Part shown: in pieces, positions 8,754 through 47,774 of the stretch
How positions within the stretch are numbered: position 1 is the stretch's first letter
How the letters are laid out: the number at the start of each line of letters is the position of its first letter
Source of the DNA: Agapetus fuscipes
Taxonomy: Eukaryota; Arthropoda; Insecta; Trichoptera; Glossosomatidae
Reading direction: 5' to 3'
DNA: 64,000 nucleotides
NCBI GenBank assembly: GCA_951799405.1
Contig: OX637332.1
Location: forward strand, 17,923,001 to 17,987,000
Notes under the pieces: model-generated
What the model was told of the DNA's origin: nothing
The model's database searches: none
The model's input: the letters and a program-made list of their open reading frames with translations, nothing else
Made by a program: the position numbers and the translations under genes

Positions 8754-10655
8754 TTAAAAATCAGCATTGCAGATTAGCCGCCACTTCTTCCTGTCCTTGC
8801 ATACTTCTTTCATTTCATCCAGAGTCATAACCTTTTTCATACAAGTCCTCCTTTTATTATGACTCTGGATATCCCATTCATTCGCTATTTCAGAGATTTG
8901 ATCCTTCCATACTTTTCTCGGTCTTCCTCTACTACGACATCCATCTATTCTAGCAACATATACTTTCTTCGTCAATCTTTCATCACTCATTCTCTCCAAA
9001 TGCCCGAACCATCTTAACATACTTCTTTTAATCTTCACTTTCACACTTTCCCTTACACCACATTCTTCTCTTACAAAATCATTCCTCACCCTGTCACTTC
9101 GTTTTTTCCCAATCATACTTCTTAGATAGTCCATTTCTACTGTATGGACTTTACTAATTTCCCTTTCACTCACCGTCCAGGCTTCACTTCCATACATTAA
9201 GGTTGGCACTAGTATACCACCGTGCACCGCCAATCTAACATTTTTTGAGAGATTTTGGTTCCTGGCGATGCAAGCGGTCGCACCCAGTACACACCTGCCT
9301 TTTATTATTCTTCTTTCAAATTCACCGGCCATTTTTCCATCCTTTTCAAACTTACTTCCCAGGTATACAAACTCATTTACGACATCAACATTCATTCCAT
9401 TAATTTTAAATTCATAATTCATATTTTCATCATCTCTTTCAAAAATCAATACTTTCGTCTTACTTGCATTCAACTTCAAATGGTTACCTAACAAAGCTTC
9501 ATTCAATCTGGAGAGCATTGTTTGCAATTCTACTGCAGAATCAGATACAAGAACTGCATCATCTGCATACAGTAGAACACTCACTTTGCTCTCTCCTATC
9601 ATCAATCCACAATCATGAAGTCTAGCATCCCTGACACACTTGTCCATAACTATGTTAAATAGCCATGGACTCATCACACATCCTTGCCTCACACCCTTAT
9701 ACACTTCAAACCACTCACTATACTCACCATCAATACGGACACATGCCTTACTATTTTCATAGTTTGCATGCACCGCACCTAGGAGAGCCCCATTCACTCC
9801 GTATGCTTTCAAAACATCCCATAACATACCTCTGTCCACTGAGTCAAAAGCCTTTTCCAGATCTACAAAGGCCGTGAACAGCTTCCGCCTCATCGACAAT
9901 TGTTTTTCAACAAGTTGTCGTAGAGTAAAAATCTGATCAACACAGCCTCTACCGGCCATAAAGCCGGACTGTATATCGGAAATCCTTTCACTAGTAGTCA
10001 GAATCACATTTTTTATAATCACCTTACAGAAGACTTTTCCTGGTATACTGAGTAGACTGATTGGTCTGAAGTTCTGACAGTCTTTTTTGTCCCCTTTACC
10101 TTTGTAAATGGGAACAATGACTGCCTTCCTCCAATCCATCGGTACTACTCCTGCATTCACACAAAGCTTACATAATTCGTACATCCAATCTATCACACAT
10201 TCACCTCCTGCTTTCAACATTTCACCATTTATACCATCAAACCCAGCAGACTTCCCATTCTTCAGACGTGAAATAGACACTTTCATTTCTTCTTTCAAAA
10301 TATTCAATTCATTCTCTTCATCTATCTGTTCATAAATTCTTCTTTCACCCTGACCAAAAATTTCTTGAAAATAGTTCTTCCATCTCTTGCATACTTCTTC
10401 ATTCTCCCATACCATCTCACCGGCAGCACTTTTGACTCCTGGAGTGGTCAATGCAGAAGATTTCTTTTTATCCGCATTGATCCACCTCCAAAATTCCTTC
10501 TTACTGTCGGTGAAACTTCTGTTAATCCTTTCATCAATCTTTCTTTGTTCATTCATCTTGCTTTCATAAATTATAGTCTTCTTTATATAGCATACTTTAG
10601 TAAAATAGATTTTTCCATTCATTTCTTTAACATTTCCTCTGAATAAACACTTCAA
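8754..10655 (-). CDS. RTE-like LINE reverse transcriptase, 5'-truncated
   Basis: A 633-codon open frame for a non-LTR reverse transcriptase, which would copy its own RNA at a nicked genomic target. RT blocks occur in order: IVPIYKGKGDKKDCQNFRPISL (about 180-201), FVDLEKAFDSVD (263-274, catalytic Asp 265), GVRQGC...SPWLFNIVMD (321-338) and YADD (363-366). The C-terminal region contains RRIIKGR and MLRWFGHLERM, then GRPRKVWKDQI, typical of RTE-type and related elements. No apurinic endonuclease domain precedes the RT, and the frame's left side is just short linker sequence, so this is a 5'-truncated copy although the RT frame has no stop. The AT-rich 3' region (8629-8753) runs into an R1 copy. 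I infer the RTE assignment from the C-terminal motif only. Confidence 0.8.
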   Translation of the reverse strand: MKCLFRGNVKEMNGKIYFTKVCYIKKTIIYESKMNEQRKIDERINRSFTDSKKEFWRWINADKKKSSALTTPGVKSAAGEMVWENEEVCKRWKNYFQEIFGQGERRIYEQIDEENELNILKEEMKVSISRLKNGKSAGFDGINGEMLKAGGECVIDWMYELCKLCVNAGVVPMDWRKAVIVPIYKGKGDKKDCQNFRPISLLSIPGKVFCKVIIKNVILTTSERISDIQSGFMAGRGCVDQIFTLRQLVEKQLSMRRKLFTAFVDLEKAFDSVDRGMLWDVLKAYGVNGALLGAVHANYENSKACVRIDGEYSEWFEVYKGVRQGCVMSPWLFNIVMDKCVRDARLHDCGLMIGESKVSVLLYADDAVLVSDSAVELQTMLSRLNEALLGNHLKLNASKTKVLIFERDDENMNYEFKINGMNVDVVNEFVYLGSKFEKDGKMAGEFERRIIKGRCVLGATACIARNQNLSKNVRLAVHGGILVPTLMYGSEAWTVSEREISKVHTVEMDYLRSMIGKKRSDRVRNDFVREECGVRESVKVKIKRSMLRWFGHLERMSDERLTKKVYVARIDGCRSRGRPRKVWKDQISEIANEWDIQSHNKRRTCMKKVMTLDEMKEVCKDRKKWRLICNADF

Positions 10656-29740: not shown

Positions 29741-31282
29741 TTCATATATATATGAGGATAATTTATTTAATTAAAAATTAATACATGACAAAAGAGCGCC
29801 GTTTTTGTGTATGTCACACCTCAAGGGCCCTCCTAATCATAAATAAGATGTTTTAAAAAGGTGCTGTTTGAGTGCTTTCTTAAAAATGCCAACAGATTCC
29901 GAAACCCTCACTCCGGGTGGCAGTCTGTTCCACTCCACTGGTCCCGCAAACCGGAAAGCGCGATCCCCAAAATTAGTGCATATTTGACGGCGAGGCTGCA
30001 CCAACCTGACAGCTCGACACCCCGCTGACCTAAGTGTCCGCCCCCTCACACTCACCTCAACGGGGGAAAACATGTCTGCCAGATATGATGGAGCCAAACC
30101 ATTTAGGGCTTTAAATACCATCAAACACACACGGTAGACCACCCTCTCAGGAAAACGAAGCCAATGTAGTTCTTTCAACAGCGGAGTGATGTGAGAGAAT
30201 TTGGACATCCCGAAGATCAGTCTTGCGGCCGCATTCAAAACAGACTGAAATCTGTTCAGTTGCTTCTTTGACTGGCCGATATAAAGTGTGGAACAATAAT
30301 CAATTCGGGACATCACAAAAGCACTCACCAATGTTTTAACCACACCCGGCGGTAGACACCTCCTGATAGCCCTTATTTGGCGTAGGCCAAAAAATGAAGC
30401 GGCTATTGTTTTGTCAACCTGCTCCTCCATTGTGAGATTTAGATCCAGCATAACTCCCAAAAGTCTCACAGAGTTAGAAGGCTGGATCAAACTTCCCCCA
30501 ATGGAGAGAGGTACCTATTATCCAGGAGGTGATCGCGCCTGGATGTGGCCGACCACATAAGTTCGGTCTTGTTGGCATTGAGGATAAGGCCGTTTTGCTT
30601 CATCCATCCACCCACCTCCATGATGCAAGCAGACATCCTGCCTTTAAGGTCTTCAGTCTCATTGGGCCGACACTGAGAGAAAATCTGCCAATCATCAGCA
30701 TAAGAATGAGCAGAAAGGCCGTACTTTTCGACTATACTCTCAATGTCGGCTGTGTAAAGTAAAAAAGGACCGGACCCAGCACGGACCCCTGCGGAACCCC
30801 AGAGGTGAGTGAATAGACAGGTGAGACATCATCACAAATACGTACCGCCTGCTTGCGACCTACCAGGTAGGAGGTCATCCACTCCAGGGCCCCATTTCTC
30901 AAACCATACGAGCCCTCCAATCTATTTATCAGTATATCATGACTAACAGTGTCGAAAGCCGCACTCATGTCCAGAAGTGCCAACAAAGCAAGATTGCCCT
31001 GCTCCATTGCCGATATCATATCAGACGTGACCTTGAGCATACCAGTTTCTGTAGAGTGACCTTTTCGATATGCTGATTGCCATTTCGGCATGAGGTTATT
31101 AGTTTCCAGATACGATACCAGCCGGAGAGAGACAATCCGCTCCAACACCTTGGACAAGAACGGCAAATTCGACACCGGTCTGTAGTTAGAAGGATCACAA
31201 GGACTAAGTTGGGGCTTTTTTAAAATGGGAGTTAAGAATGCCATCTTCAAAGACGCAGGGACAGTGGCCTCCACTAGACTAA

Positions 31283-31337
<55 letters not shown>

Positions 31338-32270
31338 AGATTACATTATTTATTTACATTTTTATTTATAAACATTGTTATAAGAATCTAACCCTCAGGC
31401 GAAAGCGAATGCTTGTGTGCCTTGAGGGCGAGAGCTTTAATATTTAATGTTCATTTACATAACTATTTTTTTATAAAGGTATAATATGTCTGATTCATTG
31501 ATAACCTTTACAATAAATGGGGCCAACTGTAAGATGCATTCTTTCAGAACCCACGTCGGCACAGGGTCAAGATCGCACTGCTTATTGGGTGACTTCGCTA
31601 TTACACCTGAGATCTCCTCAAAGTTAGTTTCATCAAAATACCCAAGACGTGAATTGCCACCAGTTACAAAACCAGCAGAACCCACGCCCAAGGTAGAGCG
31701 CAATTGGAGAATTTTATTCTCAAAGTGCTGTGCGAAATCAGTGGCAGCCGAAGTCACGACCGGACCGACCCGAGATCCGCCAGATAGGTTCTCCAGAAAT
31801 TTCCACAGTTGTTGAGGATTTTTAACCCCAGAAAATTTATTACGAAAATAGATGGATTTTTTCTGGAGAAAAGTAGATCTGTACTCCCTCTGAGCACTGA
31901 TCCACATGTACCGGGTGCAACCTGGTTTGCCATTCCTGAAATTTTTTTCGTGCTTGCGCATACTGCGCTTCAAAACGCGGCACTCATTGTCAAACCAAAT
32001 TGCACTTCTGCGATCTTTAACAATTTTCACAGTTATCGGAGCATGCTGATCAATCACCACTAGCCCGTCCGGATGCATCGAGACAAAGGTCTCCGGATCA
32101 CAAACTGGTGAGAGCGACAAATCAAATTTAAATTTGTTAATGTCAAAACCGTTCCAGGATCTGGTAATAATTTTCCTGTAAACTGGAATCGGGCGTCCTA
32201 TATTAAGGTATGAAATCACCAGCCTGTGATCCGAGAGACCCACGTCTTTAACCTCCGTCCTGGAAGGCGC
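29741..32270 (-). mobile_element. CR1/L2-like LINE, 3' portion (copy A), disrupted
   Basis: The endonuclease C-terminus (VKDVGLSDHRLV), a linker and the reverse transcriptase read on the minus strand from 32270. Frames: 31492-32270 (end of endonuclease, linker, start of RT including QCDLDPVPTWVLK), 30732-31274 (RT blocks LTPILKKPQL, FRPVSNLPFLSK-like, LDMSAAFDTVSHDIL, SGVPQGSVLGP), and 29837-30490 (RT thumb and C-terminal region ending GIFKKALKQHLFKTSYL). The YADD block lies between them in a shifted frame near 30690. The 3' region GGGCCCTTGAGGTGTGACAT, GGCGCTC ends at a TATA run. Frameshifts and a poly(A) insertion at 31285-31489 make it inactive. Its 5' portion is at 41831-42340, separated by the nested transposon. 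Confidence 0.88.
31285..31489 (-). repeat. Poly(A)-tailed insertion in the LINE
   Basis: An insertion of about 205 bp breaks the RT frame between INES and SLVEATVPASLK. On the minus strand it ends in an uninterrupted run of 49 A (31285-31333 on +). Inside is a stable hairpin, CCCTCAGGC (31392) with GCCTTGAGGG (31419). No tRNA or 5S boxes were found, so the family is unknown. The target duplication is not clean enough to call. Confidence 0.6.
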
Positions 32271-32605
32271 GTCCTCCCTAGGTTGGAGCGTGCTTGTATG
32301 GAGTTTTTTTTTTTTTTCGAATTTAAAAAAGGCGGGGTGCGAAATCGGTGCTCTGGTACACACATATTAAGCACAGAAATTTTGGATTCAATATCTTATC
32401 TGCAAATTGTGCCCCAAAGCCCTTGAAATATCACAAATATTCAAAAAAGTGGGTAGTGCAATAACTGGTTTCGTATAAATTCTAACCATAAATTATACAA
32501 TTTCTCACTTGCTATTGACTAACGATAAACACAACTAAAGAATAATAGTGAACAAATCCTAAAAAACATGTGTTTACCCGCGAAATATCGTTGTCGATTA
32601 AGTAA

Positions 32606-34258
32606 TTTTTCGCGAAAATTTGCTATATTCAAAACAGGGAAAACTTGTCGGGTGGAGATCAACCATCCACGTTTGGCAGTCCAGTAGTTGTAGTAAACTC
32701 GGATACAGCTACTACAGCTACTGCTATAGCAAGCAAGCAGCTCAATAAACTTAATTTGCCAGTTGTAGCCAGAACACTGGATCGTTATGGCGTTTCCGAT
32801 CGGGCAGGAGCTGCCATCGTGTCTGCTGCATTACAAGATATCGTATTGGTGACTGAAGATGATTGCAAGAATGTTGTAGATCGCAGTAAGATCCGCCGAG
32901 CCCGTACTCAAACTAGGAACGTGCAGATTTCCACTCAGCTTGACCTAGGGTAGTCCATTTGTATCTCGTTTGACGGACGAAAGGATAAAACGTTAGTCAT
33001 GGAAGGCAAGCGCAGAATATTGGTAGTAGAAGAACACATCACTCTTTTAAAAGAACCTGGGTCACAATACATTGGCCACATTATATGCAAGTCAAGCGAT
33101 GCTAAAACTATTGCCAACAAAGTTTTAGCTTATTTTGTAGCGAAATCGATCAATACAACTACAATCACAGCCATCGGATGCGACGGTACTGCCGTTAATA
33201 CTGGAATTCATTCAGGTATCATACGCCTTATAGAAAAAATATTTAAACGACCGCTCCAGTGGCTAGTGTGTCAACTACATGCGAATGAATTGAGCTTGCG
33301 TCACCTTTTTGAATCTATCGATGGGACGACAACAGGACCCAAGAGCTTCAGCGGTCAGCTGGAAAAACAGCTGAAAAACTGCGAATACCTCCCAGTAGTT
33401 GATTTTATACCAATAACATGCAACCTGCCAGACATTACAAAAGTTCACGGGGATGTAAGCACAGAGAAGCAATATTTGTTGGAAATATGTCAAGCTATTA
33501 GTGCAGGACATAGTGATGAAAACTTGGCTAAGAGGTCTCCAGGAAAAATATGTCATTCGCGTTGGTTGACGACAGCCAACTCACTTCTCAGGCTATACAT
33601 TTCTACCAATAATCCGACTGAAAAACAGATGACTGTGACTGAATTCGTCTTGAAGGTTTACGCACCGATGTGGTTCCACATTAAAACAAAACCTTTGTGC
33701 GTTTACGGGGCAAAACACCTACACGAAACCATTAAATTGACTCGGTATCTTCCAACACATTTGAAAGAAATTGTCGACCCCGTGATACAAAGGAATGGTT
33801 ATTTCGGTCACTGCGAAAATGTACTAATCGCAATGTTGAACGACGAGAGAAGCCACATCCGAGAACTAGCTGTCAGGCGAATCGTGAAGATCAGGGAACA
33901 AACGTCGGGGTTCCGAGTCTTCAAGGTGTCAAGCTTGAACTTCAACGCAGAGCAATATTATGACCTGATTGAATGGGACAAAGTTTCTGAACCACCAGTC
34001 CTGAAACAAATTAGCACCGAATTATTGAAGGACGCCATCGTCAATCCAGATATAGTGGAAACTCAGATTTTGATACTCTTTCGCCAAATGCCCTGTCACA
34101 CTCAAGTAACTGAAAGATGCATCAAACTTGTGACTGAAGTGTGCTCTGCTGTATGTGGCCCCAAAAGACGGGTAGGATGGATAAAAAATAGTTGGAATCC
34201 TGTAAAATTATGCCGATTTTCAATACCAAGAGAGAATACAAAACTAAGTAATTTTTAG
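32606..34258 (+). pseudogene. Divergent hAT-like transposase with one in-frame stop
   Basis: A DDE-type transposase would cut and paste the element. One frame runs from 32606 to 34258 and is broken only by TAG at 32951-32953. Features downstream of that stop: SFDGRKD (candidate first Asp, about 32970), IGCDGT (candidate second Asp; residue 62 counted from the ATG at 32999), CQLH (C91-H94, the CxxH seen in hAT proteins), HSRWLT (R188-W189), and a conserved-looking C-terminus PCHTQVTERCIKLVTEVC. No ATG opens the frame upstream of the stop; a separate frame starting at 32570 (MCLPAKYRC) might be the original N-terminus after an indel. I recognise this layout as a transposase-like family but cannot give it a family name. 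The mutated stop suggests a dead copy, though the ATG at 32999 would still allow a 419-residue product. Confidence 0.65.
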
Positions 34259-34358
34259 AAATTTACCGTATTTTCAACCATTTTTCAAAAAATAAACCTT
34301 GTGTTAGTTGTATAAACTGTTTCACTTTATTCTTTTGTTGGTAGTCAACAAACAATAT

Positions 34359-34831
34359 TGTTACGAAATTAGGGTTCAATTGTCTTCAAATAAAAAAATA
34401 CACAGGTCTTCTTCAATAGTTATTTATTTTACACAGTTACAAAATTTATTTTCACACTACTTTCTCGATTATTCCACTTGGTTTTGGTTCACTGATCAGA
34501 TGACTTCGATGTGTTTGTAAGTCTCTATGATACTGGCCGCTCTGCAGGCCATTTGCACCCTTTATACTCTTTAGAGCAGTATAATCTAGACCTATAGTTG
34601 CTAGAAGGTTCCAGAGTAATTATTACTTCTCGATGTTTCACGTACTACCTAGACACAACCAAAATCCTACCTACCAATGCAATACAGTATTCCTATAATT
34701 ATAACAAATACCTACTTAGCCTAGAGAATTCTATACTTATACATAATTATCGATCTTACCTACCAATACTTTTGAGGATTCTTATAACTATAACTACCCA
34801 TACTTATTTCAATATTTATATTTACATAACA
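34359..34831 (-). repeat. 3' LTR of the Gypsy element
   Basis: 473 bp. On the minus strand it carries a TATA box (TATAAA, 34561-34566) and an AATAAA-like polyadenylation signal (34423-34428). The polypurine tract GGTGGGGGGTAG lies immediately upstream on the minus strand (34832-34843). Confidence 0.93.
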
Positions 34832-37800
34832 CTACCCCCCACCTAGACTGTTTCGTCCCGGAACAGTCTTTACTCTGTGTAGGTAGGGGCATGCTGATCC
34901 ACGTCGACACCCTGTGGTCAGGAAGAAGTGGCAGTCCACGGATTTCTCCCCACTGGCTCTCGGCTGCGCTTGCTCGCAGCACACCATGACGCTGATGCCA
35001 ACTCCCGAGAACACTGCTTCAATCATACTCCGGATTATCCGCCAGTCTCGATTAGCGCGGCCGCCACCCATCTTCGGTATTGCCAGACGCGCCTGCTGAT
35101 CCTCCAACATGTAGTCACGCAGCTCAACAAGGCCGTCCCACAATGCCTTGTAGTCCTCTTCCAGGTTGCTGGAATCCGGGACAACCAGGCAGTATGCTTG
35201 TTGACGCCCCTTCGGTAGTCTCAGAGCTCTTCCTTGCGGGCTGCTCGAGGGTTGCGGTTCTCCGAATTTGTATCGGAAGACCCGTGCAATTCCTCTAGAC
35301 ATATCTAGATCTTCCGGTACACAGCATGCCAGTGTGTGGTCCCTAGTGACCTCAAATAAGTCCTTGTGGACTTCTGTGGTCACTCCATGGCGAAACTTCT
35401 GCCCTGCCTTCGCGTTCTCCCAAAACGTCTCAAAGGCTGGTGATCTTTCGGATGCGACGCACTGTCGTACTTTTTGGGCTGGTTGGTCATCATTATCGCC
35501 TAGGTATGGTGAGAGGCGATTGTAGTGCACGACCCTTGGTTTTCCGTTTGGTCTCTTTTTTATGCGGTAGACCACATCGTTGATGCGCTCCAAGATCTCG
35601 TACGGCCCGTCCCAGGAACGCTGAAGTTTCGGACAGTATCCTTGGCGCCTCTTGGGGTCAAAAAGCCACACCCAGTCACCAGCTTTGTACCCCATGCTGT
35701 CAGCTCTGGTGTCATAGCGCTCCTTCATTTGATCGCTGGCTTCCCCGATGTTCATGCGGACCTGATCATGGATGTCATCCAGCCTCCTGCGAAGGTCTGT
35801 CACATAGTCTTCTCCGGCTAGGTCTTCACCTGGTTTGCAGCCAAATTTGAGATCACAAGGAAGTCGCATTTCTCGCCCAAACAGTATGCTGCTGGGAGTC
35901 TTCTTCGTCGTTTCCTGAACAGCCGACCGGTAAGCCAATAAGAACAAAGGCAGATGTCGGTCCCAGTCCCGCTGATGGCTGGACACTACTTTGGCTAAGT
36001 ACCTCCCCACGGTACGGTTCATCCTTTCCACCATTCCATCAGACTGTGGATGTAGCGCAGTGGTCCTGGTCTTGTAGATCCCTAGCCGCTCACACATTTG
36101 CTGGAAGATAGCAGCTTCAAAGTTCCTTCCCTGATCAGAATGTAATTCCAGGGGTACGCCAAACCTGCTGATAAATTCGGTAACTAGAACTTCAGTCACG
36201 GTTACGGCCTCTTGGTTAGGGATTGAGTAAGCTTCCACCCACTTGCTGAAGTAATCCATCACCACCATGATGTACTTGTTACCCTTCTCAGTTGTAGGAA
36301 ATGGGCCAGCTATGTCGATGGCAATTCTTTCAAAGGGGCTGCCAACGTTGTACTGACGCATTGGTGCTCGCCTTTTCCTTTGCGGTCCATTGGCCGTTGC
36401 ACAGGTTACACATTTTCGACACCAATCTTTGACGTCTTCGCTGCAGTTGATCCAGTAAAATCGCTCTTTCACTTTCTCCAGCGTCTTCTTAACGCCTAGA
36501 TGTCCTCCAGAAGCTCCTCCATGCAGCAGTCCAAGGATTTCCGGTATTCGGCTCCTCGGAACGAGGGTTTGCTTTCTTCTAAGTGTGCCGTCTTCCTTCT
36601 CGATCTTTCGTTTCAGAAACCCTCCTTCTATCACTATGGATCCCCATTGAGCCCAATAAGCCTTGGCAGTTGGTGATAAGGGGGCGAGTTTTTCCCAGGT
36701 TGGCCTTTCTCCTTCTCGCGCCCATTCCATCACATACTTCAAGTCCGGATCATTCAGTTGGTCTTGCGCCAATTTTTCATCTTGCCAGTCCTCATCTTCG
36801 GTGGTCGTCCTTTGGACAATTGCTACCTTGTCCTCCATCTTGCTGCAATGTTTGCAGTCACTGGCGCATGGTCGTCTGGATAATGCATCCGCATTTCGAT
36901 GAAGCGTGCCAGGTCTATGTTCGGAGTCATAATCATACTCCTGGAGCCTTTCAATCCATCTAGCCACTTGCCCTTCTGGGTTTTTGAATTTCAGAAGCCA
37001 AACCAGTGCAGCATGATCAGTCCGTAGGGTGAATTTTCTCCCGTACAAGTATTTGCGGAAGTGTTCCACTGATTTTATCACGGCAAGAAGCTCTCGTCTG
37101 GTCACGCAATAATTTCGTTCTGGCTTGGAAAGCACTTTACTGAAGTAACCCAGAACAGTCTCATGCCCATCCTGTATTTGGGAAAGGACGCCTCCTATCC
37201 CCACATTACTAGCGTCGGTATCCAGGATGAACTTTCCATCTTTTCGTGGGTAGCTCAAGATGGGGGCACTTGTTAATCTTCCCTTAAGCTCTTCAAATGC
37301 TTGTGCGCAGGAATCACTCCAATGGAAGCGAGTGTTTTCTTCCGTAAGCTTGGTGAGCGGTTTTGCAATGTCCGCAAATCTTGGCACAAACCTCCTGTAA
37401 TAAGTGCACAGCCCCAGGAAACTCCTAGTTTCATGTTTGTCCTTCAGCACGGGCCAGTCTCTTACTGCCTTGATTTTGGCAGGGTCAACTTCAACTCCAC
37501 GTTGAGAAACTATGTGTCCCAGGTAATTTACTTGTTTCTTGAACAGGTTACACTTTTTCGGGTTGAGCTTCAGTCCAGCGTCTTGTAGTCGCCCGAAAAC
37601 TTGCTCCAGATTTCTCAACTGATGGTTGAAGTCCTTTCCCAGGATGATTATGTCATCCAAGTATACCAGGCAGGTTTCCCATGACAGTCCTCGCAGCACA
37701 TTCTCCATCAGCCTTTCGAACGTGGCGGGGGCATTGCATAAGCCAAATGGCATCACGGTGAACTGCCAAAGTCCAGATCCAGTCGAGAATGCAGTTTTCT

Positions 37801-39094
37801 CCTTATCTTTGGCATCCAATTCAACTTGCCAGTAGCCACTTTTCAGGTCCAATGTGGAAAAAATGGTGCATCCTGCCAATGTGTCCAAGGTGTCGTCAAT
37901 CCTTGGCAGAGGGTAACTATCCTTTTTCGTAACATCGTTGAGCAGTCTGTAGTCCACACAAAATCTCGTGGTACCATCCTTCTTTTTCACCAGTACCACC
38001 GGGGATGTCCAAGGGCTACTTGATGGTTCTATGATGCCATCCTTGCTCATGTCTTTGATGATCTTGTCAGCTTCTTCCCGCTTTGCAAAGGGTAGTCTTC
38101 TTGGAGCCTGTTTTATTGGTCTCGCTTCTCCGGTGTCTATGCTATGTCGCACTACCTTGGTTCTTCCCAGACGGCCATTAGAGTCCTCGAAAATGTTCTG
38201 GTAGCGGCAGATCAAACTCCTCACTCTCCGTTTGTTTTCCTCGGTTAGACCTTGGGAAGCGTCGTGGACCAGGGCTTCCAATTGTGTTGACAATTTGTTT
38301 CCTTCGCATGACATGTTTGTCATCTGTTGCACAATGGAAGTTATCCTCTCACATCTGCCCAAAACAAAACCTTCATTCATTTTAACTGGGTAGCTGTTCA
38401 CATTCATGATCTTGACAGGAATGGTCTCCTTTGCGCGAATCACTGTTCTTGCCACCATGACTCCTTTGTTAACATTGTCCATGTTCTCCGGTTCTATCAT
38501 ACAGATTTGGTCATTTGTACTACTGGAATCCAGGCGGGCACTCACTATCATCTCGGATCGCCCCTTCACTTCGGTATTCTTGGCTAGGATAACACGTGCA
38601 GCCAGTTCTTTCCGTCTTTGCAGGATGACTTCTTCATTTCCAATTTTAATGGACCCTTTCTTTAAATTTAAACTGCACCCAAATCTGTCCAGTATGTCCA
38701 TTCCCAGTATAACGTCTTCTTCAATGTTGGCCACCAACGTCCGATGATCAAAAGTGGTGCTGCCAATTTGGAAGGTGGCAATCGTCTCCCCATACACCTG
38801 TGCTGACTCTCCCGTGGCGGTGTGCAGAGACCACTTTGTTGGTGCAATCTGCTTACCTCGTGCCACTATGTCGCGTCTCAGAATTGTCCTGGTTGCTCCC
38901 GTGTCCACCAGTAGTTCACGAGTTACTCCATCTATTATGCCATTGATAAAAATGCTGCTGGCTTTTCCTCTCACGGTTGCGACAGTAGCAGCAGATTTCA
39001 GGGCCTCTCCAGCGTGGGTCAACGGTTGCCCCTTCCCATTAACCCTTTCTAGTTTTCCGCAGCCTGTTTTCTGGGTTTCTGAGGCTTGGGACAC
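34832..39094 (-). CDS. pol: Gypsy Pol polyprotein with C-terminal macrodomain and CCCH finger
   Basis: 1420 codons. Protease (DTGA, 64-67); reverse transcriptase (about 330-520: FSTLDLKSGYWQ, YLDD 478-481); RNase H (DTDAS 625-629, TDH 692-694); integrase zinc motif (H858, H865, C895, C898), catalytic D927, D987 and E1023 with D,D(35)E spacing; GPY/F module (GPYEILERI from 1163). After this, where most Gypsy Pols end, there are about 220 further residues. 1241-1372 reads as a macrodomain of the TARG1 type (KDLFEVTRDHTLACCVPEDL, DMSRGIARVFRYKFG, YCLVVPDSS, LAIPKMGGGRANRDW, IEAVFSGVGISVMVC). 1388-1406 is a CCCH finger (C-x7-C-x5-C-x3-H). The frame overlaps gag by 46 nt in the -1 frame and starts without ATG, so it is probably made by -1 frameshifting. 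In the macrodomain, the position matching the catalytic Asp of TARG1 appears to be Ala, so ligand binding is more likely than hydrolysis. Confidence 0.93.
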   Translation of the reverse strand: MSQASETQKTGCGKLERVNGKGQPLTHAGEALKSAATVATVRGKASSIFINGIIDGVTRELLVDTGATRTILRRDIVARGKQIAPTKWSLHTATGESAQVYGETIATFQIGSTTFDHRTLVANIEEDVILGMDILDRFGCSLNLKKGSIKIGNEEVILQRRKELAARVILAKNTEVKGRSEMIVSARLDSSSTNDQICMIEPENMDNVNKGVMVARTVIRAKETIPVKIMNVNSYPVKMNEGFVLGRCERITSIVQQMTNMSCEGNKLSTQLEALVHDASQGLTEENKRRVRSLICRYQNIFEDSNGRLGRTKVVRHSIDTGEARPIKQAPRRLPFAKREEADKIIKDMSKDGIIEPSSSPWTSPVVLVKKKDGTTRFCVDYRLLNDVTKKDSYPLPRIDDTLDTLAGCTIFSTLDLKSGYWQVELDAKDKEKTAFSTGSGLWQFTVMPFGLCNAPATFERLMENVLRGLSWETCLVYLDDIIILGKDFNHQLRNLEQVFGRLQDAGLKLNPKKCNLFKKQVNYLGHIVSQRGVEVDPAKIKAVRDWPVLKDKHETRSFLGLCTYYRRFVPRFADIAKPLTKLTEENTRFHWSDSCAQAFEELKGRLTSAPILSYPRKDGKFILDTDASNVGIGGVLSQIQDGHETVLGYFSKVLSKPERNYCVTRRELLAVIKSVEHFRKYLYGRKFTLRTDHAALVWLLKFKNPEGQVARWIERLQEYDYDSEHRPGTLHRNADALSRRPCASDCKHCSKMEDKVAIVQRTTTEDEDWQDEKLAQDQLNDPDLKYVMEWAREGERPTWEKLAPLSPTAKAYWAQWGSIVIEGGFLKRKIEKEDGTLRRKQTLVPRSRIPEILGLLHGGASGGHLGVKKTLEKVKERFYWINCSEDVKDWCRKCVTCATANGPQRKRRAPMRQYNVGSPFERIAIDIAGPFPTTEKGNKYIMVVMDYFSKWVEAYSIPNQEAVTVTEVLVTEFISRFGVPLELHSDQGRNFEAAIFQQMCERLGIYKTRTTALHPQSDGMVERMNRTVGRYLAKVVSSHQRDWDRHLPLFLLAYRSAVQETTKKTPSSILFGREMRLPCDLKFGCKPGEDLAGEDYVTDLRRRLDDIHDQVRMNIGEASDQMKERYDTRADSMGYKAGDWVWLFDPKRRQGYCPKLQRSWDGPYEILERINDVVYRIKKRPNGKPRVVHYNRLSPYLGDNDDQPAQKVRQCVASERSPAFETFWENAKAGQKFRHGVTTEVHKDLFEVTRDHTLACCVPEDLDMSRGIARVFRYKFGEPQPSSSPQGRALRLPKGRQQAYCLVVPDSSNLEEDYKALWDGLVELRDYMLEDQQARLAIPKMGGGRANRDWRIIRSMIEAVFSGVGISVMVCCEQAQPRASGEKSVDCHFFLTTGCRRGSACPYLHRVKTVPGRNSLGGG

Positions 39095-40449
39095 TTGGTG
39101 CTAAGGTGGCCCAGCTGTCCGCAGTTCCAGCAGCGTGGGTCTCGTCTTCGAGGTCTCAGACGTTCCAGCACTTTTTCAATTAGCTCCTCGGTTGTAGGTA
39201 GCTTGACCTCCTCTGCCTCGACTGCACGAACCCTGGCGTGGCCCCTGATGGACTGTTTGACAGCCTCAAACTCGAGAGCTTGGCTGAGCGCCTCGTTCAA
39301 AGCCTTGGGATGGGCCAGTTTTACGGCTTGTTGCGTCTCCCATTCCCGCAATCCATTTAGGAACTTGTCCACTGCCAAGCTCTCACAGATGTCGTCGGAG
39401 GCTGTCGGGTAAGCGTCTCGTACCAGGCGGGCGATGTCCATTTCAAACTCCTGGAGGCTCTCGTTGGGCTTCTGCACCCTTGTGTTCAGCTGCGACTTGT
39501 ACAGCTGCTCCAGGCACTTGTGGCCATAGCGCATATCCAAGCGCTGCTTCAGCTGCCCAAAGTCACCACGGTTGTCCAGGGGTATGGCCTGCAGAACCCT
39601 GAGAGCGTCTCCTCGGAGCGACAGGCTGAGAACCGAAGCCTTCTTCTGCTGGCTCCAGGCTCCCATCATGGCAGCCGTCTCAAAGAGGGTCAAGTATTCC
39701 TCCCACGACGTCTTCCCGTCGAAGGTTGGGAGGTTGTGCTTGGCTAGGGAAGGGTCATCATCCCCTCTTGTGATCCTGGTTGGAGTTGAGCATCCCTGGT
39801 CGGTCTCGTCGTGAAGGCCTTTGGGGGATATTCTGGTGGACTCCATCTGGCCCTTGTCGGTCAGCTCGGCACGCAGATGTACCTCCAGATTTGACATCCG
39901 AGTCTCCATTTCCCCCTTCAGGGCTGTCATCTTCTCCTCCATTTCTCCCTTCAGGGTTGTGAGATTCTCGCTCATCTTCTCTTTCATGTTGGCGAGGTCT
40001 TCCTTCATGGTGGAGAGGTCTTCCTGCAGAGCCTTGGCGTTTTCAGCCATCTCCACTTTCAGGTCCGACAGGTTCTCCTGCAGGGTCTTGGCGTTGTCAG
40101 CCATCTTCTCCTCCAGGGTCTTGGCATTGTCAGCCATCTTCTCCTCCAGCCCGGTCAGGTCCTCCTTCACGGTCTTGGCGTTGTCAGCCATCTTCTCCTC
40201 CATGGCAGTGAAGTTTCCCGTGAGCTCCTCCTTCATGGATTTTGTGATGCTGATGTTCAGCTCCTCAAGGGCGCGGTCTCCTCCAGATGCCATGACAAAG
40301 TATGCCGGGTCTTCACCTGACCGTTCCAAGGCCTCTATGAGGCGTGCTTGTAAGGCTGCCTTTCCTCCTGAGGTCTCCAGGTCCCTCTCCAGAAGCTCAT
40401 TTTTAAGCTCAGTGACTTTGAGGTCCTTGACGTTCACTTTAGTTGCCAT
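39049..40449 (-). CDS. gag: Gypsy Gag with N-terminal SAP motif
   Basis: 466 codons from ATG at 40449. Structural protein of the retrotransposon particle. Residues 8-42 (DLKVTELKNELLERDLETSG, then KAALQARLIEAL) fit the SAP motif, a DNA- or chromatin-binding helix pair. Residues about 72-195 are a long coiled coil built from repeated MADNAKT/KEDL and MKEKM/LKGEM units, visible at DNA level too (40.0-40.25 kb). About 245-400 is a retrotransposon Gag core (WEEYLTLFETAA, LQAIPLD, ESLQEFEMDIARLV). CCHC zinc knuckle at 440-453 (CWNCGQLGHLSTKC). The 5' leader lies at 40450-41103. Confidence 0.92.
   Translation of the reverse strand: MATKVNVKDLKVTELKNELLERDLETSGGKAALQARLIEALERSGEDPAYFVMASGGDRALEELNISITKSMKEELTGNFTAMEEKMADNAKTVKEDLTGLEEKMADNAKTLEEKMADNAKTLQENLSDLKVEMAENAKALQEDLSTMKEDLANMKEKMSENLTTLKGEMEEKMTALKGEMETRMSNLEVHLRAELTDKGQMESTRISPKGLHDETDQGCSTPTRITRGDDDPSLAKHNLPTFDGKTSWEEYLTLFETAAMMGAWSQQKKASVLSLSLRGDALRVLQAIPLDNRGDFGQLKQRLDMRYGHKCLEQLYKSQLNTRVQKPNESLQEFEMDIARLVRDAYPTASDDICESLAVDKFLNGLREWETQQAVKLAHPKALNEALSQALEFEAVKQSIRGHARVRAVEAEEVKLPTTEELIEKVLERLRPRRRDPRCWNCGQLGHLSTKCPKPQKPRKQAAEN
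39052..39072 (-). other. Candidate -1 frameshift region between gag and pol
   Basis: Within the 46-nt gag/pol overlap two A-runs could allow slippage: AGAAAAC (39066-39072), where the Lys AAA codon can slip one base back onto AAA, and GGAAAAC (39052-39058), just before the gag stop. Neither is a perfect X-XXY-YYZ site. No ATG opens pol. Confidence 0.4.
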
Positions 40450-41103
40450 TTTTTTTTTTTAAATTTACTTCAAAACAAAAAAAATATTTTCAAATTTATT
40501 TAATACGAGTTTTATATATAGAGCTGTTTTGAATACGTACTTTAGCAAAATAATAATTTATCTGATTACACTGTGAGTAGGTACTGTCTTTTAATATTTA
40601 TTTTTAATTCACCAATATTTTTTTACATAATAATGTCTGATAGTACATAATTATTTATTTCGTCTCAAGTCTTTCAAACACACAGGTAGGTACTTAATGT
40701 ATATTCACACACTTGTAAACAAAGGATAGTTATTCAAAAACTTTTTCTCGATGAATCTGGAACGTTCTTTTGTAATATTTTTCAAGATTTTTATTTATTT
40801 ATTTTATTTTTTTTAATCACACACAATAATAAAAAAAACTATGGTCCAATTTGATGACTTTCTCAATGCGGTAAAATAGTCATTATGTTATGTCCAGAAT
40901 TATGTCCAGAATTATGTTCCATATGATGTTCCAGAATTTATAAGCAACTTGCTTTTGCGTCTTTTCTTTTAACAAAAATTTATTTAAACACTTGTTTTCA
41001 CAAAAGTCAGTTCACACAAAGTTCAATTTGAATAAAGTTCATTTTAACACTATTTAATTTATTTTACTTATTTTTAGACAGAAGATCTTAATTTTTCTTG
41101 ACA

Positions 41104-41121
41104 ATTCCGCACCTGACGCCA
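41104..41121 (-). other. Primer-binding site of the Gypsy element
   Basis: Two bases after the 5' LTR the minus strand reads TGGCGTCAGGTGCGGAA, which begins with the expected TGG and would pair with a tRNA 3' end. The tRNA species was not identified. Confidence 0.75.
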
Positions 41122-41123
41122 AT

Positions 41124-41596
41124 TGTTACGAAATTAGGGTTCAATTGTCTTCAAATAAAAAAATACACAGGTCTTCTTCAATAGTTATTTATTTTACACA
41201 GTTACAAAATTTATTTTCACACTACTTTCTCGATTATTCCACTTGGTTTTGGTTCACTGATCAGATGACTTCGATGTGTTTGTAAGTCTCTATGATACTG
41301 GCCGCTCTGCAGGCCATTTGCACCCTTTATACTCTTTAGAGCAGTATAATCTAGACCTATAGTTGCTAGAAGGTTCCAGAGTAATTATTACTTCTCGATG
41401 TTTCACGTACTACCTAGACACAACCAAAATCCTACCTACCAATGCAATACAGTATTCCTATAATTATAACAAATACCTACTTAGCCTAGAGAATTCTATA
41501 CTTATACATAATTATCGATCTTACCTACCAATACTTTTGAGGATTCTTATAACTATAACTACCCATACTTATTTCAATATTTATATTTACATAACA
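41124..41596 (-). repeat. 5' LTR of the Gypsy element
   Basis: 473 bp, apparently identical to the 3' LTR. Promoter elements on the minus strand: TATAAA at 41326-41331; polyadenylation signal at 41188-41193. It drives gag-pol leftward. Confidence 0.93.
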
Positions 41597-41830
41597 ATAT
41601 CAATATATAAAATATGTAAAAATACTTATAGTTTTTTTTTTACTGATTTTAATTTGAACCCCTGTTTTTGGACTTTTTTGTTTTTTTCAGTGGCCTTGTG
41701 GCACAATTTCCACTGAAAATATTGAAATCTCGTAATAGTGTCTTTGTTCGTATCCCTATGGAGCACCAATTCCCCACTCCGCCCAAATCAAAATCCCAAA
41801 AAAAAGTTCACGCTCCACCTTAGTCCTCCC

Positions 41831-45360: not shown

Positions 45361-46175
45361 GTAACATGTTTTGATAGCAGGTATTATTATAAATCACCAA
45401 TTTCTTCTAAGTAATATTATTCAATGATTGTCTTCAATTTTTTTAAGGAACTAAGTAATATAACATAAAACTTCTTAGTATCTCATAACATTTCCAAGTA
45501 GGAGTTTTTTAAAATGAAATATCTCACTTTGTTACTACAACTTTTAGTGTTGTGATGCAATGGATTAGCAGATAAAACAGGCATTCACAACTCATGTACC
45601 AAGCACAAAAAATCATACCTGTTTTAATCTGTTTCAAAACCCTCAAAATGAACAACAAACGTTTCGGGAGCTCACCGTGAGCAAATATTATCAGCAGTGA
45701 TGGCACGCAAGGCAGCTTGGCTATTCGCTAATTTTGCTTATTTGCTAAGGTGGGTCGGCTTAAGCATTCCTAACTTCTCACCAATGGTTCATAACTGTTC
45801 AACTGACAGTTGACAGCTAACCTCAACATGAATATTAGCCACAATTATTTGTGTTCATTAAATGGATTAAAGCTATCAAAAGCACAAAATTCTGATGAAA
45901 ATAACAGAATCGTGACAAATGATGCATTTTGAGATAAATCTACATCAATTCTGCCGAGCTTTGACAGCTGCTGTCTGGTTGACATGAAGTTTGCTTATGA
46001 TAGTCCGAAGTGCTTTGCTACCGAGCTACCCCCACCATGATTTTTACTGTAAGCGCTCACAGTGCTCAAACAAGCTCCCCGAACACGGCCCAAGTTTTCT
46101 GCTAAACATAGGGTTGGCTAATATCTGGTGCTTCGGTTCAGAGCTTGGCCAAATATTTCTTTTTTGTGCTATCAC

Positions 46176-47774
46176 TAGGGATATCACAGGTAGTGCGTAC
46201 TTGTGACTGTGTCTCACCTTCCTATTCGCTGATCTCCGGAGTGCCGCAGGGGTCTGTGTTGGGACCGATCCTGTTCATTTTATACACGGCCGACATTGAG
46301 AGCATAGTCGAGAAATGGAGCCTTACTACACATGCATATGCAGATGACTGGCAGATTTACTCTCAGTGTCGACCACACATGGCGGGAGCTCTCAGTAACA
46401 GAATGGCAGCTTGCATTGCGGAGATCGGTGAATGGATGACAAGCAATGGCCTAATCCTTAACATGGGTAAGACGGAAATTATGTGGGCGGCTACGTCCAG
46501 GCGTGATCATCTCCTGACAACTCGCGTACCACTCTCCATTGGGGGACAGCTGATTCAGCCGTCAGATTCAGTGAGACTTCTAGGAGTCACACTGGATCGG
46601 AACCTCACAATGGGAGAGCAGTTGAATAACACGGTATCCTCCTCGTTTTTTGAACTTCGCCAGATTAAGGCAATCAGGAGATGTTTACCATCAGGGGCGG
46701 TCAGGACCCTGGTTAACGCTTTTGTGATGTCTCGGGTTGACTATTGCTCAACGCTGTATATAGGTCAGCCGAAAAAACAGTTTAGCCGACTACAATCTGT
46801 GCTGAACTCTGCAGCAAGACTCATTTTCGGGATGTCCAAATTTAATCATATTACTCCATTGTTGAAAGAACTGCATTGGCTTCGTTTTCCGGAGAGGGTT
46901 GTCTACCGTGTTTGTTTGATGGTTTACAAAGCTGTCAATGGTACGGCTCCTTCATACCTGTCTGACATGTTCTCACCTATTGAGATAGATTTGAGACGCC
47001 AAACTCTCAGATCTGCAGGGTGTGGGGTGGTTGACTTAGTCCAGCCGTCACGTCAGACACGCACTAATTTTGGGGACCGTGCTTTCCGGTTTGCGGGCCC
47101 AATGGAGTGGAACAGACTACCACCTAATGTGAGGAAGGCAGAAACTGTTGGTGTCTTTAAAGGAGCACTAAAGACGCATCTTTACAAAAAATCTTATCCG
47201 TGATTTGAGAGGGCCCTTGAGGTGTGACACACACAAAAACGGCGCTCTTCAATTATGTGTACCTTATAAATAAATTATCCTTGTAAATATATATATATAT
47301 AGGCCGAACGTGGTTTGAACCGAATACGAACTTCGGCCGAACATTCGGTTAAAATAAAAAAATTCGGCCAAACTTATTCGGTTCGGTAAAAAAGTTACGC
47401 AGTATAGTTTCTAGTTACTGTTATTTGTTAGAAAAATACTAAATTTATTTAAGTTTTTTTCAATCAGATATCTACATAGCGGAGTAGAAAAAGATTTAAT
47501 TTTTATCAAATTGTGAGTTTATTTTCACTTGTTCCTACTAAAAGAAATGACCATGAGTGAGTATATAAAGACCTAATTTTTATTTTGCGGGTATAAAAGA
47601 GACTATGATATCAAATTATAACAGTCAAAATGGTGCAAGTAGGTATTTTGCTTTAATTTTTCTTACACCGAATGTTCCGCATTTGAACCGTATTTCGGCC
47701 AAATTCCGAAATTCGGTTCAAGCTGCCGAAATTCTGGTTAAACCGAATGTGAAACGAACTTCAGCCCATCCCTA
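46176..47774. mobile_element. Second hAT-type element, split by a LINE
   Basis: Begins TAGGGAT (46176-46182) and ends ATCCCTA (47768-47774), with an exact duplication GCTATCAC at 46168-46175 and 47775-47782. The inner right end reads, complemented, GGGATGGGCTGAAGTTCG; the left resumes after the LINE as AGGCCGAACGTGG. TTCGG-rich inner sequence (CGAATACGAACTTCGGCCG) is self-complementary. Without the LINE it is about 490 bp and non-coding. Confidence 0.85.
46184..47298 (+). mobile_element. CR1/L2-like LINE, 5'-truncated (copy B), RT frame intact
   Basis: A single open frame to 47203 covers the second half of the reverse transcriptase: SGVPQGSVLGPILFILYTAD, YADD (residues 65-68 of the frame), thumb (RRCLPSGAVRTLVNAFVMSR), and the C-terminal region ending GVFKGALKTHLYKKSYP. 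It is closely related to copy A at 29.8-32.3 kb. The 3' end GGGCCCTTGAGGTGTGACAC, GGCGCTC, AAATAAATTATCC runs into a TA microsatellite. 5' truncation near CRTCDCV-equivalent codons is typical of incomplete reverse transcription. The first 15 or so codons of the listed frame come from the host hAT element and flank. Confidence 0.88.

Follow-up and report, generated by a model that had tools for sequence, protein, structure and literature searches.

What does a retrotransposon do with a Pol protein that continues well beyond its integrase? The question is raised by a stretch of 64,000 nucleotides of the trichopteran Agapetus fuscipes (GenBank assembly GCA_951799405.1, contig OX637332.1, positions 17,923,001 to 17,987,000 of the forward strand; hereafter the window), which contains a complete long terminal repeat (LTR) retrotransposon of the Gypsy (Ty3) type at window positions 34359-41596 on the minus strand (contig C33 of the 618-Mb assembly). 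Its Pol frame remains open for 224 residues past the end of the integrase module at residue 1196, in agreement with the initial annotation, which had reported about 220 residues beyond GPY/F. Judged from its sequence, the tail genuinely belongs to the Pol frame and consists of a predicted TARG1-type macrodomain (ALC1-like class) followed by a CCCH zinc finger between the integrase and the 3′ LTR; it thus occupies the position expected for an env gene. An ADP-ribose eraser of host origin appears to have been turned, in the lineage of the window element, into an ADP-ribose binding module that would tether or protect the Pol complex or mask ADP-ribose marks, a reading to which a probability of roughly 0.6 is given.

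Within the 223-residue tail, residues 43-174 match five human TARG1 (C6orf130) sequences of the Protein Data Bank (PDB) with E-values of 2.6e-12 to 3.2e-12; the match spans the whole domain, as expected of a TARG1-type macrodomain, and TARG1 is the sole macrodomain among the 38 PDB sequences matched by the tail up to an E-value of 10. A profile of relatives, from which the family of the window element (family 1) and its sister family in the same genome (family 2) were excluded, recognizes the tail with an E-value of 4e-33; in a control against the same profile, none of 1000 shuffled tails does better than 0.87. The TARG1 chains are recovered at E-values of about 4e-55 by a profile of nine related element domains, followed by chains 5m31 and 5m3i at about 1e-11, which we take to be DarG. 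The tail is therefore predicted to adopt the macrodomain fold, and the TARG1-like assignment first made at 34877..35374 stands, with its coordinates exact (the codon of residue 1241 starts at 35374, and that of His1406 finishes at 34877) and the strings quoted in its favour present. The two Pfam families that had been named for comparison gave a divided answer. The Macro family (PF01661) is not reported for the window protein up to an E-value of 1 and its curated cut-off is not reached, whereas the zf-CCCH family (PF00642, cut-off 20.5 bits) scores 21.5 bits (E 2e-4) in a scan of the isolated tail but 17.5 bits (E 0.004), under the cut-off, in a scan of the whole Pol. The finger reads C1388-x7-C1396-x5-C1402-x3-H1406, as had been claimed. 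Because PF01661 fails to report it, ordinary Pfam annotation could miss the window macrodomain; one relative (P0007) scores 22.1 against the PF01661 cut-off of 22.

An open frame of this length could in principle be a chance read-through of host sequence in a single copy, and the initial annotation had looked to other copies of the element to decide the matter. A genome search with the tail yielded 1413 candidate places, of which the best-scoring 150 were scored, a sample in which decayed copies are not represented; the tail is stop-free in all 150 (all listed at 100% identity), and 118 of them, counted by eye, lie within frames of at least 1400 aa. As family 2 and related Pols of other species also have the tail and no point in favour of read-through was found, its probability is virtually nil. 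Among 30 fetched copies, including that of the window, 13 tail sites differ from the window copy, which has Cys at tail residue 61 where 25 of the 30 have Ser. The family is currently or very recently active.

Other families of the genome carry related domains. Families 3 and 4 (L120, L121 and L122) have a macrodomain between RNase H and integrase (hereafter the middle type) with both catalytic residues kept. A 1285-aa-frame Gypsy family (L137, G000:C7:4054900-4059400) has a very degenerate macrodomain in the same place, in which Lys84 is kept and the GCGLD loop with the catalytic Asp is gone, the frame being open and of equal length in several copies; this is a second loss of a catalytic residue. 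In L138 and L139, with reverse transcriptases (RTs) 58-60% identical to that of family 4, no significant macrodomain was found in the two parts read, from RNase H to integrase and downstream of integrase, and a different stretch of roughly 150 residues lies between RNase H and integrase. One copy is chimeric (L118, G000:C17:10820000-10827500): its RT is 94% identical to that of the window family (85-86% for family 2 proper), and its integrase and macrodomain resemble family 2 (81% and 52%), which suggests recombination between families.

Protein searches with the window tail returned one protein, with the tail of P0001 51 and with the domain of P0044 13 (four of them new), for 55 different proteins. 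The same C-terminal tail is found in Gypsy Pols or Pol-derived gene models P0001-P0011, P0013-P0017 and P0020, the named sources of which are Aromia, Callosobruchus and records labelled as the mildew Erysiphe pulchra; the Gypsy Pols annotated in the mildew (among them P0001 and P0014) are suspected to be insect contamination. The CCCH motif is present in 11 of these 17 relatives (the sequence of P0011 is cut short), and was sought after the macrodomain of P0014-P0017 and P0020 without being found. Elsewhere in Pol, the macrodomain lies before the protease (P0037 and P0052), upstream of RT and probably after the protease (P0051), in the middle position (P0043, P0044, P0055 and the Athalia gene model P0041), or at the C-terminus of a different RT clade without CCCH (P0036 and P0054). 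The remaining relatives are cellular insect proteins, Banna virus VP5 (P0050) and P0053, in which a Pfam scan found no match and which is read here as an RNA-virus-like metagenome protein; P0050 and P0053 are of TARG1 type with both catalytic residues present. A scan of viral contigs with the window tail gave no match, and one with the macrodomain alignment gave 70 loci with best segments at most 41% identical, which were not used.

The catalytic residues of TARG1, Lys84 and Asp125 (printed as Glu125 in passages of a review, PMC7050489, although the TARG1 sequence itself has Asp there), were compared across 55 aligned macrodomains: 28 from elements, 25 cellular (human TARG1 included) and two viral. 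Six near-duplicates that all keep this dyad (P0009, P0010, P0024, P0042, P0046 and P0047) were left out, and L137 and a broken family-2-like relic (L127) are outside the 55. Both residues are kept in all cellular and both viral rows and in 26 of the 28 rows from elements. In the other two they are replaced, by Pro and Ala in the window family and by Arg and Ala in family 2; L127 also has Arg at the Lys84 position. In the window Pol, the equivalents are Pro1306 and Ala1347, so that the replacement of the catalytic Asp by Ala is confirmed and that of the catalytic Lys, absent from the initial annotation, is added to it. Because the compared lineage members outside the window genome, 15 of 15, retain the catalytic Lys and Asp, the module was probably an ADP-ribose eraser in its ancestral state. 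Families 1 and 2 retain the equivalents of Asp20-Leu21, Gly43, Ala45, Pro118, Gly121 and Gly123, including both glycine loops; these positions are contacts for adenine and phosphates.

Could the window-type domain still be an eraser that uses other residues? The ALC1-like class is mechanistically diverse, TARG1, DarG and SCO6735 differing from one another in passages of the same review (Rack et al., PMC7050489), and an Asp-Trp pair three residues after position 125 in both families offers an acid. However, this Asp is no new acid, being present in 11 of the 26 dyad-keeping relatives alongside Asp125, and Lys84 has become Pro or Arg and Asp125 Ala where the dyad is present in 26 of 26 other element domains; continued erasing is accordingly very improbable.

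Selection on the macrodomain was measured as the ratio of nonsynonymous (dN) to synonymous (dS) divergence. Between the window copy and a divergent subfamily copy (L125), dS is 0.24, dN 0.03 and dN/dS 0.13 (bootstrap 0.04-0.28); between the window and family 2, dN/dS is about 0.23 (0.15-0.44). Both values indicate purifying selection over the domain for which the initial annotation had proposed such a comparison. Because the window copy and L125 both carry the changed dyad, the constraint acted after the dyad change. L125 was picked by a search with a beetle cellular macrodomain and not with the window, so that the bias towards intact copies is lessened, though still present; rows for L124 and L125 in the region before the tail, in which amino-acid identity was 0.17-0.21 through a frame or region mismatch, were ignored. 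No weight was given to the dN/dS of the 30 best window-family copies, whose tails vary at 12 synonymous sites and one nonsynonymous site, because protein identity had been the basis for picking them.

Several observations weigh against a conserved binding function. Between families, dS (about 1.9) approaches saturation, and saturated pairs yield no ratio. In the sole unsaturated window-family 2 pair for RT, the chimeric L118, dN/dS is 0.03, lower than the 0.23 of the macrodomain. The window macrodomain is 36-44% identical to those of ten lineage members (10 of 10 pairs), which are 47-79% identical among themselves (45 of 45 pairs), at an RT identity of 74-79% between the window and the same ten. 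Such faster divergence also fits weakened constraint. His32 is replaced by Cys in both the window family and family 2; its position is Asn in P0015, a dyad keeper. The macrodomain might therefore be a vestige that has lost both catalysis and binding and persists as a folded spacer or an extension of the integrase, with the CCCH finger doing the work. The changes at His32 and both catalytic residues, the faster divergence, the open frame of L137 around a domain without its GCGLD loop, and the coming and going of modules, as in the five relatives without a detected CCCH motif, all agree with a vestige. It is nevertheless unlikely, given the upper bounds of 0.28 and 0.44 on dN/dS and the identical glycine loops, Asp-Leu and Trp in two families whose domains are only 51-52% identical. 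The best reading is that constraint on the macrodomain has changed and is weaker yet real. The proposal in the initial annotation of a reader rather than an eraser fits the window family, in which the dyad is gone and purifying selection persists; the compared lineage members outside this genome keep the dyad.

That a host ADP-ribose module was captured, as had also been proposed, agrees with the relationship of the macrodomain to insect cellular proteins, but the capture is not peculiar to the window element. In the macrodomain tree, the 17 rows of the C-terminal type are monophyletic (support 96/95), with the window and family 2 paired among them (100/99), whereas P0051 and P0053 group together (90/79) and are joined by aphid cellular genes (89/81) rather than by other elements. 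In a first FastTree, P0051 joined the aphid genes at only 0.303; that tree also grouped P0037 with Diabrotica genes (0.913), a grouping absent from the careful tree. In the RT tree, the window is among C-terminal-type elements, the nearest outside row is the middle-type P0043, and the other types are on deep branches. Five positional types plus the absence of a macrodomain, six labels in all, require five changes on this tree, which is the minimum for that number, and the middle type alone needs three. In an approximately unbiased (AU) test on RTs, a single clade was rejected for five middle-type rows (p 0.0157) and not rejected for four (p 0.24).

Either the elements captured macrodomains several times, or a single old capture, with later relocation or recombination, lies behind all macrodomain-bearing Gypsy lineages. 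The latter has a real if lesser chance: the AU test does not reject monophyly of all 28 element domains (p 0.119), and L118 points to recombination between families. Against it are the differing Pol positions across deep RT branches, the grouping of P0051 with an RNA-virus-like protein and aphid genes, and the two Gypsy families (L138 and L139) with RT near the middle type and no macrodomain in the part read, which may be a loss. Because the macrodomain tree is weak in its backbone and the AU test on macrodomains leaves a single clade standing, the reading of separate captures rests mainly on position within Pol. A broader generalization would be that Gypsy elements, probably those of insects, repeatedly took a TARG1-type eraser from their hosts into various sites of Pol, that ADP-ribosylation is a general defence against retrotransposons, and that the most successful family here turned its eraser into a reader of ADP-ribose by which the integration complex is guided or shielded; taken as a whole, this is doubtful.

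To return to the preferred reading of an eraser turned into a binding module, the macrodomain of the ancestral element would have stripped ADP-ribose from the element's own integrase, from cDNA or RNA ends, or from silencing factors. In the window lineage, stripping would have been replaced by binding of ADP-ribose on integrase, on cDNA or RNA ends or on chromatin, with nucleic acid contacts contributed by the CCCH finger (probably RNA-binding) and by the SAP domain (a DNA-binding type) of Gag. Most likely, the complex of Pol and nucleic acid would be tethered or protected at ADP-ribosylated host chromatin; alternatively, the domain may mask ADP-ribose marks that host enzymes turn against the element. 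Dyad-keeping relatives would remove the marks rather than bind them.

In mammals, ADP-ribosylation is an antiviral weapon that viral macrodomains counter. Passages of the review cited above state that TARG1 cleaves ADP-ribose from acidic residues and nucleic acid ends and that its ALC1-like class includes readers and erasers (PMC7050489). In Drosophila parp-1 mutants, the expression of several mobile elements is disturbed, usually by an increase, and of ten more elements whose upregulation has weak statistics nine belong to the gypsy superfamily, according to the portions consulted of a study (PMC7712786) whose authors note that the effects of PARP-1 may be indirect, a caution that applies here. 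SIRT6 mono-ADP-ribosylates KAP1 in the silencing of L1, as described in part of another report (PMC4695847). A parallel is offered by insect-restricted alphaviruses, the macrodomains of which have lost catalytic residues (excerpts of PMC7729036), and by chikungunya virus, for which sections of a preprint propose ADP-ribose binding and not catalysis as the selected property (PMC12632316). The same sections report that the mutants replicated normally in mosquito cells and that effects in mosquitoes went both ways. Because alphavirus macrodomains are of MacroD type and the mosquito effects are mixed, the parallel is loose and tempers the case for a reader.

The features of the element are listed in Table 1. 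The LTR pair with its target duplication, the Gag frame and the Pfam order of Pol (protease, RT, RNase H, zinc-binding and core integrase, GPY/F-type module) are those of Ty3/Gypsy elements. The pol frame is -1 relative to gag, with an overlap of 46 nucleotides; the sequence AAACCCA in this overlap was considered as a -1 slippage site and ruled out, its register not being that expected. Gag contains a SAP domain (residues 7-42, PF02037, E 4e-8), also found in the Aromia relative P0009, a long repeat region read here as a coiled coil, and a CCHC zinc knuckle (residues 439-455, PF00098, E 1.8e-5).

Table 1. Features of the Gypsy element, in window coordinates.
Feature	Position	Strand	Remarks
5′ LTR	41124..41596	-	473 bp, TGTTA...TAACA, base-for-base the same as the 3′ LTR
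Candidate primer-binding site	41106..41123	-	directly inside the 5′ LTR; assigned by position only
Gag	39049..40449	-	466 aa
Gag SAP domain	40324-40431	-	N-terminal
Pol	34832..39094	-	1420 aa, single frame, start codon assigned mechanically
Reverse transcriptase core	37508..37990	-	residues 369-529, PF00078, E 6e-37
Integrase core	36062..36337	-	residues 920-1011, PF00665, E 3e-15
Integrase C-terminal GPY/F-type module	35507..35608	-	residues 1163-1196, PF22938, E 3e-12
Predicted TARG1-type macrodomain	34979..35386	-	residues 1237-1372
CCCH zinc finger	34877..34945	-	residues 1384-1406, PF00642
Pol end	34832..34843	-	purine tract in the last Gly codons, a candidate polypurine tract; the 3′ LTR follows directly after the stop codon
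3′ LTR	34359..34831	-	473 bp
Target duplication ATAT	34355-34358 and 41597-41600		flanks the element

Elsewhere in the window, three frames judged by eye resemble RT remnants of non-LTR elements of the long interspersed nuclear element (LINE) type (8754-10655 and 29837-32363 on the minus strand, 46145-47203 on the plus strand), and a 419-aa open frame without assigned identity adjoins the element (32999-34258, plus strand). Searches of the whole window for tRNA and Rfam matches gave none.

A Gypsy lineage with a TARG1-type module and a usually intact active site would implicate ADP-ribose marks in the control of insect transposons. That the relatives keep the active site while the window family has lost it yet preserves the module suggests that such marks matter in the contest between host and transposon, and the natural dyad-keeping and dyad-lacking versions of one domain make a direct comparison possible. 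The initial annotation knew of no Gypsy precedent. No title on a macrodomain in a Gypsy element was found in searches of the open-licence literature of PubMed Central, and the available portions of PMC8195603 and PMC6638189 make no mention of macrodomain-bearing elements, but fish endogenous retroviruses with macro-domain frames are in print: such frames occur occasionally in the Epsilon-like endogenous retroviruses of ray-finned fish (Basta et al. 2009, as cited in a passage of PMC4977317). Because of this precedent, the window element does not present the first macro domain in a retroelement. By that description, the fish retroviruses are alike in being retroelements with a macro-domain protein, and unlike in that they are of vertebrates and encode it in an additional reading frame, whereas the window domain is of TARG1 type and inside a Gypsy Pol.

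Among cellular proteins, TARG1 (OARD1, C6orf130), an ALC1-like hydrolase, shares the domain over its full length and its Lys84 and Asp125 with the compared element relatives; the window domain differs in its fusion to Pol with a CCCH finger and in the Pro and Ala of its dyad. The insect multi-macrodomain proteins (Tribolium LOC661444 and those of Diabrotica and Cryptotermes annotated "O-acetyl-ADP-ribose deacetylase 1") have the same macrodomain with Lys and Asp kept, but are cellular genes without RT or integrase. Cellular macrodomain exons of this type are present in the window genome on contigs C31 and C52; the near-identical TARG1-type exons there (L116 and L117 on C31, L130 on C52) keep the dyad and perhaps represent a duplicated host gene. 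ALC1 (CHD1L) is a chromatin remodeler. Its macrodomain, of the same class and described in passages of PMC7050489 as a non-hydrolytic ADP-ribose reader, possibly works in a similar way to that of the window.

The macrodomains of RNA viruses (coronaviruses and alphaviruses) likewise equip a selfish element with an ADP-ribose module, and those of insect-restricted alphaviruses share the loss of catalytic residues (PMC7729036, in part). Unlike the window domain, they are of MacroD type and not of TARG1 type, the exception being the TARG1-like VP5 of Banna virus, which has the dyad. The integrases of chromoviruses, which are also Gypsy elements, carry a C-terminal chromodomain that binds methyl-lysine. 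By analogy, the window element would have a module that binds a chromatin mark C-terminal to its integrase, in a position comparable to that of the chromodomain, but of a new kind, composed of a macrodomain and a CCCH finger.

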